A DNA stretch of 34,517 nt from Alphaproteobacteria bacterium (GTDB lineage: Bacteria; Pseudomonadota; Alphaproteobacteria; UBA9655): assembly GCA_021731585.1 (NCBI GenBank), contig JAKFXB010000039.1, positions 1 through 34,517 on the forward strand. The letters run 5' to 3'. Below, piece after piece: positions 1-7,990 of this stretch; within the stretch, counting starts at the first letter, position 1; each line of letters begins with the position of its first letter. The notes under the pieces are model-generated. The model ran no database searches, was not told the DNA's origin, and worked only from the letters and a program-made list of their open reading frames with translations. The position numbers were made by a program, and so were the translations under genes.

Positions 1-63
1 AAAGTTATCGATAAATCCCGCATTCATGCTAGCAACCTAGCTTTGAAAGCAACTCTTGTATAA
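1..63 (+). CDS. Short peptide gene, copy 1 (5' end cut by window edge)
   Basis: The first base of the window begins a lysine codon that aligns with codon 3 of the complete copy at 141-209. Twenty sense codons and a TAA stop are visible, reading KVIDKSRI, HASNLA, LKATLV. Against the second copy there are four base differences over 63 positions. Three are silent third-position changes (AGC/AGT, AAC/AAT, ACT/ACC) and one is Val/Ala. That bias suggests a translated peptide rather than a non-coding repeat. The first two codons and the ribosome binding site lie outside the window. The function is unknown. A precursor-peptide role beside the HExxH protein at 223-1227 is inferred. Confidence 0.6.
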   Translation, partial: KVIDKSRIHASNLALKATLV

Positions 64-140
64 AATAGTGAATTTTTAAGTAATTTTTGAGTCATTTATG
101 TTTCGGGTCTTTGATAAATAAAATAAAAAAGGAGAGAACC

Positions 141-209
141 ATGATTAAAGCTATCGATAAATCCCGCATTCATGCTAGTAATCTAGCTTTGAAAGCAACC
201 CTTGTATAA
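141..209 (+). CDS. 22-residue peptide, candidate RiPP-like precursor (copy 2)
   Basis: The frame opens with ATG at 141 after a good ribosome binding site (AAAAAAGGAGAG, seven to ten bases upstream) and stops with TAA at 207-209. The peptide begins MIKAIDKS, continues RIHASN and ends LALKATLV. It is basic, has no cysteine, and carries one His, one Asn, one Asp, one Thr and two Ser residues that a modifying enzyme could use. It is not hydrophobic enough for a membrane segment and has no signal peptide. A near-identical copy lies at 1-63. The stop is 13 bases before the earliest start of the HExxH protein at 223, so the two could be co-translated. I do not recognise the peptide. Translation is well supported by the Shine-Dalgarno site and the silent-substitution pattern; the precursor role is inferred. 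Confidence 0.65.
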   Translation: MIKAIDKSRIHASNLALKATLV

Positions 210-222
210 ATAGTGAATTTAA

Positions 223-1227
223 GTGGTTTTTGAATCATTGGTGTCAGAAGCTCTTCCCATTTCTGGAAGGGCTTCATTTTTAAGAAAGGATTTTAACCTT
301 TCCCTTATTGAAAGCATTCAGTATCTCGTAGAAGCTTGCAGGGAGGTTCTTCCTGCGTCTCTTTTTATTCAAGTGCAGCAAAAAATGAATAATTTAAAAC
401 CTGATCATAAGCTTTCGGGTTTTTTGAGTTTATTGCATTATGAATTATTTAATGCAGCAGAGAAAAACGATATTAAACAAGTTAATTCTATTATCGATTG
501 CCTCAATGCCGAGGAGCTCTATGTTGAAAATCTCAAATTTTTAAACTTAGCAGATTTGGATGCGTGTTATTTAACTTCTGTAAAAACAATTTTTTCTCAA
601 GAGATTAAGCGTGAAGTTGAGTTTTTTTCTCTTTCCTCTTCAGATTTTAATGCCATGGAAATGGCCCTTCAAAAAGGTCTCAGTCTCTATAAGGACGCAT
701 TTCCAGATTTTTATGAGGAATTTGAACAACTTATTGGTGAAATACTTTTGTTAAAAGCCAAAGGACTCTACCAGGGATCTAGTACGGACCTTTATGGGAT
801 GGTTTATAAATCCTCTTTACATAATTGGGAAAAAATAACGGACGTGTTTGAGTTTTTTGTTCACGAGCAATCTCACCATTACCTTTTTTTAGTGAACACA
901 AAGGACTCCCTTCTTTTAAACCCTACGGATATTCATTTTTCTCCCATAAGAAAAGAAAGAAGACCCCTTATGGGAATTTATCATGCAAATTTTATTTTAT
1001 CTCGCGTATGTTATGTTTTAGATAAAGCACTTGCTAATGATGTTATTCCTATGGAGGAAAGGCCTTATTGTATTGAATTTTTAGAGAAGTATAAAGAGTG
1101 TTTTTATGAAGGGTTAAAAACACTTGAAACTCATGGCCAATTCACTCCTTTAGGAAAAGCGATTCTAGAATCGGCGACCAAATTGGTTAACTCAATACCT
1201 CTTAAATCCACAAAAAAGATAGCATAA
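223..1227 (+). CDS. HExxH-motif protein, probable alpha-KG/HExxH-type peptide-modifying enzyme
   Basis: This 334-residue soluble protein has no signal peptide or membrane segment. Residues 213-219 read VHEQSHH, an HExxH metal site. About 20 residues on come SPIRKERRPLMG (240-251) and IYHANF (252-257). That order, HExxH then a Ser-Pro-x-Arg and Arg-Pro stretch then a His-containing helix, matches my memory of the 'mod_HExxH' family, some members of which are Fe/alpha-ketoglutarate beta-hydroxylases of RiPPs. The N-terminal 200 residues are helical and unrecognised. The start is unsure: GTG at 223 directly follows an in-frame TAA, and TTG 238 or GTG 241 are alternatives, none with a clear ribosome binding site, so reinitiation from the upstream peptide is plausible. 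The gene is visibly more AT-rich than its neighbours. A zinc protease is the main alternative. Confidence 0.7.
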   Translation: MVFESLVSEALPISGRASFLRKDFNLSLIESIQYLVEACREVLPASLFIQVQQKMNNLKPDHKLSGFLSLLHYELFNAAEKNDIKQVNSIIDCLNAEELYVENLKFLNLADLDACYLTSVKTIFSQEIKREVEFFSLSSSDFNAMEMALQKGLSLYKDAFPDFYEEFEQLIGEILLLKAKGLYQGSSTDLYGMVYKSSLHNWEKITDVFEFFVHEQSHHYLFLVNTKDSLLLNPTDIHFSPIRKERRPLMGIYHANFILSRVCYVLDKALANDVIPMEERPYCIEFLEKYKECFYEGLKTLETHGQFTPLGKAILESATKLVNSIPLKSTKKIA

Positions 1228-6300: not shown

Positions 6301-6441
6301 CTGGATTGAATATTTAGGTAAAAATGTATCTTTTTTACAACTCCATAGAAATGTTTTTCAAACATCGTAAATTTTTTAGTACGAATTATTAATAACTTTA
6401 GCTATGCATAACTCAAACAATTTATAAGAAAAGAGGCAAAA

Positions 6442-7362: not shown

Positions 7363-7611
7363 ATGTTAGGAATACGTGCGAAAATTGGAGCAGGTGGTCG
7401 AGTCATTATCCCTTTTTCTATTCGTGAAAAAATGCACTTTTCAGTGGGAGATGAAATAGTCCTTCATGTGAAGGATGAAGGATTGTGTATTACAACAGTT
7501 GAGCAAGCTTTGCATCAACTACAACAGAAAGTGAAAGCGCGTAATAAAAATAAAATCTCTCTTGTTAATGAACTTTTAGAAACGCGCCGCAAAGAGGCTG
7601 CGGATGAGTGA
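7363..7611 (+). CDS. AbrB/SpoVT-family antitoxin (VapB-like)
   Basis: The 82-residue protein is the antitoxin of a type II pair. The N-terminal half is a swapped-hairpin DNA-binding domain: AKIGAGGRVIIPFSIREKM and FSVGDEIVLHVKDEGLCI (about residues 5-48) give the typical 'grRvtiP..iR..l.i..GD.v' text. The C-terminal half is a basic helix (LHQLQQKVKARNKNKISLVN) and an acidic end (LETRRKEAADE), where antitoxins usually bind toxin. The stop overlaps the toxin start by eight bases. Its predicted operator is 7331-7344. It could also be called MazE/VapB-like; the AbrB fold itself is clear. Confidence 0.88.
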   Translation: MLGIRAKIGAGGRVIIPFSIREKMHFSVGDEIVLHVKDEGLCITTVEQALHQLQQKVKARNKNKISLVNELLETRRKEAADE

Positions 7612-7990
7612 AAAAGCTATTCTTGATGCCTCGGCTCTTTTGGCACTTATACAAGAAGAGCCAGGGTCTGATGTTATAAAACCCCTATTAAAACATTCCG
7701 TTATGTCGACTGTAAATGTCGCCGAGACACTTACAGCTTTACAAAAGGTGAATATCCTTCCTGAGGAAGGAATAGAATCTATCTCTCTCCTGATTAATGA
7801 AATTGTGGATTTTGATGTGGATCAAGCTAAAGAGGCTGCTGATCTCTACCCTAAAGTAAAACATAAAGGACTCTCTTTAGGAGATCGCGCTTGCTTGGCT
7901 TTAGGGCTAAAATACAAAGCAGAAGTCTATACAGCTGATAAGGTATGGAAAGATATACATCCTGAGCTAGATATAAGGTTAATTCGTTAA
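7604..7990 (+). CDS. PIN-domain toxin ribonuclease (VapC-like)
   Basis: The 128-residue PIN-domain protein is a predicted Mg-dependent endoribonuclease. All four acidic positions are present: Asp8 in ILDASALLAL, Glu41 in NVAETL, Asp94 in SLGDRACLAL and Asp112 in VYTADKVW. The toxin therefore looks catalytically intact. It overlaps the antitoxin frame by eight bases, the usual translational coupling of type II modules. Known VapC toxins cut tRNAs or the sarcin-ricin loop; the target here cannot be read from sequence. The gene ends 11 bases before the convergent tyrS stop. Confidence 0.9.
   Translation: MSEKAILDASALLALIQEEPGSDVIKPLLKHSVMSTVNVAETLTALQKVNILPEEGIESISLLINEIVDFDVDQAKEAADLYPKVKHKGLSLGDRACLALGLKYKAEVYTADKVWKDIHPELDIRLIR

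Follow-up and report, generated by a model that had tools for sequence, protein, structure and literature searches.

A candidate minimal RiPP cassette combining 22-residue precursor genes with a stand-alone aKG-HExxH enzyme in Alphaproteobacteria

Members of the aKG-HExxH family hydroxylate His, Asp, Phe, Gln and Pro residues in precursor peptides (PMC12636437, PMC13060819), and two of them, PflC and PosC, also cleave the peptide backbone oxidatively (PMC12636437). PflC and PosC, from the Pseudomonas pfl and pos clusters (PMC12636437), resemble the enzyme described here in being stand-alone proteins whose precursor is encoded in the same cluster, with no protease encoded beside them. However, their precursors are far longer (PosA is numbered to residue 94) and carry a nitrile-hydratase-type leader, whereas the peptide of the present locus has 22 residues. 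Their clusters also add an MNIO-nitroreductase and a GNAT protein, while here the HExxH protein is the only modifying enzyme. The HExxH domain of ChlB (8s5f) shares the fold of our enzyme (TM 0.72-0.77), with the HExxH motif and a third His aligned, but the two are only 16% identical and the locus in the window has no radical SAM gene. PesO of the nitrilobacillins (PMC13060819) is an aKG-HExxH beta-hydroxylase with two very similar precursor peptides, but it works together with an MNIO, a nitrile synthetase and M16 peptidases. The biarylitides (PMC13417212) are likewise built around a tiny precursor and a single oxidative enzyme; their precursor, however, has five residues and their enzyme is a cross-linking cytochrome P450 unrelated to the HExxH enzyme.

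In the literature found, the characterised aKG-HExxH enzymes belonged to multi-enzyme clusters or acted on pre-modified precursors. Within this partial coverage of the literature, no account was found of an HExxH enzyme paired with a peptide this short, or with a LysR or EamA protein. The cassette analyzed here differs from the described clusters by its single modifying enzyme, a precursor of 19-28 aa, tandem precursor copies and a small-molecule-type pump. We consider it quite probable that it is a minimal RiPP cassette, in which one Fe/alpha-ketoglutarate-type HExxH enzyme modifies a tiny precursor.

The peptide array and the HExxH enzyme

The window, meaning the whole stretch of 34,517 nucleotides that was analyzed, is contig C10 of a 2.0 Mb genome in 158 contigs, and it begins at the contig end. 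The following features were located in it:

1..63, + strand: 3' part of an upstream peptide-gene copy, KVIDKSRIHASNLALKATLV, truncated; exact 121-nt overlap with contig C125
129..136, + strand: Shine-Dalgarno site AAGGAGAG of the complete peptide gene, from the sequence
141..209, + strand: putative precursor-peptide gene, 22 aa, MIKAIDKSRIHASNLALKATLV, from pN/pS and recurrence in relatives
223..1227, + strand: predicted stand-alone aKG-HExxH-type peptide beta-hydroxylase, 334 aa, GTG start, from TIGR04267 and the fold match to 8s5f
247..275, + strand: terminator-like hairpin, 11 bp stem, with a T-rich tail from 276 (to 281), from a fold scan and kept in relatives
862..876, + strand: VHEQSHH / HEQSH metal-binding motif with His214, Glu215 and His218, invariant in 17 homologues
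940..987, + strand: SPIRKERRPLMGIYHA, a further conserved stretch with His254, from the 17-homologue alignment and the ChlH alignment

The copy at 1-63 has lost its start codon to the contig end at which the window begins. Contig C125 (L014) ends in 121 nt identical to the window start and carries a full-length peptide copy, MIKVIDKSRIHASNLALKATLV; because of this overlap, MIKVIDKSRIHASNLALKATLV and the truncated copy are probably one gene. A second complete copy lies further upstream on C125, so that the joined contigs give an array of at least three copies with a period of 146 nt. This count is a lower bound, as the assembly broke inside the array. The preliminary description had reported two near-identical mini-genes; the near-identity was confirmed, while the number was too low. 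We rejected the idea that the repeat arose by misassembly, since joining C10 to C125 gives the gene order found in two relatives (G009 and G011) and single-copy orthologues of the peptide exist. The two copies in the window differ at four positions, three of them silent and the fourth an A/V exchange, which had been taken as a sign of selection on the peptide, in agreement with pN/pS values well below 1 (see below). The Shine-Dalgarno site reported earlier for one mini-gene was found again at 129-136, and similar sites also precede each copy of the array and the peptides of relatives. The 22-aa peptide is cationic and had no Pfam match, a search that was equally empty for the enzyme.

The neighbors of the peptide genes on C125 encode LysR, EamA and MucR proteins and a 153-aa protein without a Pfam match. 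The reported absence of an exporter was thus an artefact of the contig edge, because the EamA and LysR genes lie on C125, which overlaps the window start. The reported lack of radical SAM and protease genes held: a radical SAM domain was neither fused to the enzyme nor present among the C125 neighbors, and by eye no radical SAM protein was recognised among the window ORFs. Elsewhere in the window, at 7363-7990, two small adjacent genes resemble by eye an AbrB-type antitoxin and a PIN-domain toxin.

The enzyme gene starts with GTG at 223, 13 nt after the end of the peptide gene at 209, so the peptide directly precedes the gene with VHEQSHH as previously described. No clear Shine-Dalgarno site was found before this GTG, and the enzyme is probably translationally coupled to the peptide gene. 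The resemblance to the aKG-HExxH group noted from the motif was borne out by NCBIfam TIGR04267 (aKG-HExxH-type peptide beta-hydroxylase; IPR026337), which the 334-residue protein matched with 53 bits against a curated cut-off of 40. No Pfam family was matched up to E 10, peptidase models included, and neither this search nor the fold search, at E<=0.001, gave a match to an unrelated family. Invariant among 17 homologues were H214, E215, H218, R243, R247 and H254; the SPIRKERRPLMGIYHA stretch also contains invariant Pro241, Pro248, Gly251 and Ala255. In the PDB, a sequence-profile search picked up ChlH (8s5f) and one other protein, a chain annotated as radical SAM (22nu, with 22ob as a further entry). 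The AlphaFold2 model (pLDDT 90.3, pTM 0.88) had PDB matches at E<=0.001 only to the ChlB HExxH domain (8s5f, Foldseek E 9e-13) and SjiH (22ob). His254 aligned to a His of ChlH and is a candidate third metal ligand. The structure prediction proposed earlier thus gave a ChlB-like HExxH fold, with the third ligand taken from the ChlH alignment rather than from a metal-bound model. By profile and predicted fold, the enzyme is a member of the aKG-HExxH peptide beta-hydroxylase family, with peptide hydroxylation as its predicted activity. In a model of a fused peptide-enzyme protein (stop read through in L040), the peptide reached mean pLDDT values of 64 and 41 in its first two ten-residue blocks, and confident docking of the peptide was not obtained.

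Alternatively, the enzyme could act as a peptidase of the zinc type, with no hydroxylation involved, and either mature or degrade a small peptide that serves as a signal or an antimicrobial. The HExxH zincin-like fold would allow this, hydrolysis of leaderless substrates by PflC has been seen in vitro with several metals (PMC12636437), and a cationic peptide with a pump and LysR would suit a signal. However, the family assignment, the ChlB-like fold and the invariant residues R243, R247 and H254 all match the hydroxylase family, and no Pfam peptidase was matched. We therefore regard a peptidase as unlikely.

Inheritance of the cassette and selection on the peptide

Within the order, 17 genomes were compared. 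The peptide was present in all eight genomes with this enzyme type (G000, G002 on contig C18, G005, G007, G008, G009, G010 and G011) and in none of the nine others, and it always lay directly 5' of the enzyme gene. The check proposed earlier, whether the peptide always neighbors this gene in relatives, thus came out positive, with 8/8 against 0/9 genomes. The naive probability of this co-occurrence is 4e-5, a value uncorrected for shared ancestry among the genomes, which makes it overstate their independence.

The order of the cassette genes in relatives was EamA-LysR-peptide-HExxH. In G009 and G011 a single contig carries gltA, HExxH, peptide, LysR, EamA, a protein of ~150 aa and MucR, exactly the order obtained by joining C10 to C125. 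A LysR orthologue (65-100% identity; the next best LysR has 35%) was detected in seven of the eight carriers; in G010, the remaining one, the contig breaks off right before the peptide gene. EamA adjoined LysR in all seven LysR carriers and was in place at L014, L029-L033 and L120. In G003, gltA and MucR are ~310 bp apart and the four cassette genes are missing, which represents an empty site, and in G007 the cassette and gltA are located on different contigs. These two cases suggest that the cassette was probably gained, lost or moved as a unit. The spacer between LysR and the peptide (L014, L030-L033) contains a block, AAATTTTTCTT, kept in five of seven aligned spacers, which is a possible LysR or promoter site.

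The peptide in G000 and G010 was MIKAIDKSRIHASNLALKATLV and that in G002 was MKKINKAKIHGANIPLRSTIL; further variants in the order were MIKAIDKSRIHASSLALKATYV, MIKSIDKSRIHSTELAVKTTIF, MIKKIDKSQVHANEIALRTTVV, MIKKIDKSRIHGAKITLTSTTFR and MIKNIDKSRIHGVGPVLKTTVF. Pooled pN/pS was 0.19 for codons 2-11 and 0.66 for codons 12-22, indicating purifying selection on the peptide, whose N-terminal half is conserved and whose C-terminal half is freer to vary. The contrast between the halves is the pattern expected of a short leader followed by a variable core; the first ~11 residues look leader-like and the variable rest core-like. This departs from the preliminary description, which saw no obvious leader. 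His11 was invariant and Thr20 conserved.

The peptide and the enzyme could also be mere neighbors, the small ORF having a role of its own, for example as a membrane-active peptide. Their association is known from genomes only, which leaves room for this explanation. However, the perfect co-occurrence in the order, the probable joint gain or loss with EamA and LysR, and the recurrence of the pair in Gammaproteobacteria, where the peptides have the N-terminal motif in common (see below), make it most improbable.

Peptides beyond the order and the hairpin in the enzyme gene

Tiny ORFs were also detected near related stand-alone enzymes in Caedibacter 38-128 (MLKKIESPRVLADKNILLS), G123 (MKKINTKKILVIKNTHKTTVI), Morganella (MKKLDKSKLLKIKSPLSGWSFSK), Photorhabdus (MKNFDSSKVVKIKSPLSGWAVNDKNDD) and Xenorhabdus (MNNFNSENVVKVKSPLAHWTANDKKDD). 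The N-terminal motif of the order peptides also occurs in tiny ORFs before related enzymes of Photorhabdus, Morganella, Pantoea and Photobacterium. Photorhabdus and Morganella have an MFS protein as pump instead of EamA. More distant proteobacterial loci have longer precursors (43-69 aa) with a similar N-terminus (SKLDTGKLFGF, VKLDVSKLYGF). The motif, written from the genus peptides with conservative residue classes, matched three of ten outside peptides against 0.04 expected in shuffles. Looser forms, picked after the peptides were seen, matched six and nine of the ten. When the motif was applied after its definition to plasmid matches, a new tiny motif ORF was found in each of Pantoea, Photobacterium and Xenorhabdus TCT-1. 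The Pantoea peptide MKKVESSKLLKIKSPLSGWSFSK and the Photobacterium peptide MKKLDEKKVFSLRKKSTPCLKNVSN adjoin HExxH and MFS-type genes, the latter peptide lying 5' of the MFS gene and not of the enzyme, and the Xenorhabdus TCT-1 peptide MLKKFDTQKIIGLKNQSTCLTIMTIGTK adjoins an HExxH gene. The annotated Pantoea record did not list the peptide gene in its gene table, which is stated to be incomplete.

No peptide gene was recognised in Caedibacter 37-49 or G297. Nearly the same peptide as in TCT-1 is found in Xenorhabdus TH1 with ATA replacing ATG. Two Morganella peptide genes, those of M. psychrotolerans (L049) and M. morganii FAM24679 (L055), apparently contain frameshifts, and the one of X. bovienii (L056) is apparently broken. 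The Morganella and Xenorhabdus loci with frameshifted, broken or ATG-less peptide genes are L049, L055, L056 and L146. The change in L049 sits in a run of A, where phase variation or a sequencing error is possible. Decay of the peptide by frameshifts, raised in the preliminary description, was thus seen in none of the home-order peptides, but it did appear in three distant gammaproteobacterial loci, together with one lost start codon.

Other members of the family were encountered in different surroundings. A second TIGR04267 enzyme (88.7 bits) is encoded on contig C47 of G000 (L015, 6503-7576), preceded by a different small ORF at 6323-6436, MSKSKKMTSGQKGIVFTLEDEAVFDTALATIEYSMVP. On a Legionellales contig (L057), the peptide encoded ahead of a related enzyme, VIFELNDNAVFDTTLATLQLS, resembles MSKSKKMTSGQKGIVFTLEDEAVFDTALATIEYSMVP, and this likeness suggests a second precursor type. 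L036 (G015, contig C28) contains, by eye, two radical SAM-like proteins, HExxH proteins and an ABC transporter, and is apparently a cluster of the known radical SAM-HExxH type. In L077 (4362-6233) a gene for a YcaO-domain protein directly follows an HExxH-family gene, and a 41-aa peptide, MSQSQTTQAATQNSVKPAVFELDSDMLKATPATVQGYSKPQ, is encoded upstream of them. Putative precursors with internal repeats were found upstream of 4502 in L078 (PAGILDTTDARPQTGK, about three times) and upstream of the minus-strand gene 4598-5575 in L080 (LSLKEGKPxGPxRF).

The terminator-like hairpin overlaps the enzyme codons for EALPISGRAS. The scan as a whole gave two terminator-like sites against 1.2 expected, and so proves nothing by itself. 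However, the hairpin was found in all eight order members (-15.9 to -23.2 kcal/mol), and the codons present in the seven members tested give a stronger fold than randomly chosen synonymous ones (P 0.003-0.055 for each member). Three Caedibacter-type relatives gave no such codon-choice signal, with the amino acids largely kept, and Caedibacter 38-128 has the peptide and no such hairpin. Rfam detected no RNA family at 1-1400. The simplest reading of the hairpin is a partial terminator after the peptide gene.

The rival reading is attenuation, in which the short ORF would be a leader peptide whose translation controls the hairpin and hence HExxH expression, and not a substrate. A conserved terminator-like hairpin 3' of the ORF, overlapping the enzyme start, and a short ORF directly 5' of the enzyme gene are what attenuation would look like. 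However, no run of control codons or of any single residue was seen on inspection of the order peptides, amino acids are conserved in the N-terminal half (pN/pS 0.19), and there are at least three tandem copies. The motif recurs in very distant HExxH loci, including those with 43-69 aa precursors, the Photobacterium peptide precedes an MFS gene and not the enzyme, and Caedibacter 38-128 carries the peptide without the hairpin. An attenuation leader is therefore very unlikely.

The proposed cassette and its significance

The proposed cassette consists of an EamA exporter, a LysR regulator, one or more 22-aa precursor genes and a stand-alone HExxH hydroxylase. The minimal system suggested earlier thus keeps its stand-alone enzyme, while EamA and LysR also belong to the cassette. 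As in RiPP loci, a putative precursor gene lies next to a gene for a modifying enzyme and the two are kept together (8/8 vs 0/9 genomes), and the conserved N-terminus with its shared motif and the freer C-terminus might reflect, at the level of sequence, a leader-core arrangement. In this arrangement the N-terminal ~10-11 residues (MIKxIDKSRIH) would form a compact leader recognised by the enzyme, and the last ~11 residues the core. Using iron, alpha-ketoglutarate and oxygen, the enzyme would hydroxylate either His11 or a position in the C-terminal half. The leading candidate sites are the invariant His11 and the conserved Thr20, with Asp6 and Asn14 as further candidates. The enzyme might also cut the backbone oxidatively like PflC and PosC. 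From the gene order, we infer that the product would be exported by the EamA pump and the operon controlled by LysR. The hairpin and the missing ribosome site of the enzyme gene would result in much peptide and little enzyme.

Some observations count against a RiPP. No protease for leader removal lies nearby, as in the pfl cluster. The peptide gene was not recognised in Caedibacter 37-49 and G297, and several gammaproteobacterial copies are broken. EamA and MFS pumps are as a rule exporters of small molecules, and a 22-mer would therefore be an unusual cargo. A bolder version, to which we give a modest chance at best, is a one-enzyme RiPP in which the HExxH protein both modifies and oxidatively cleaves the 22-aa precursor with its 11-residue leader. 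The small product would be exported by EamA or MFS pumps and sensed by LysR. The cassette would then be a compact circuit for a signal or a metallophore, shared by Caedibacter-like Alphaproteobacteria and by Gammaproteobacteria that live with hosts, among them Photorhabdus and Xenorhabdus.

Genes of this size can readily escape annotation, as the Pantoea record illustrates, and the shared N-terminal motif provides a means to find more such peptides. Because the cassette comprises a single enzyme and a peptide within reach of chemical synthesis, substrate recognition and chemistry of the family are directly testable with it.
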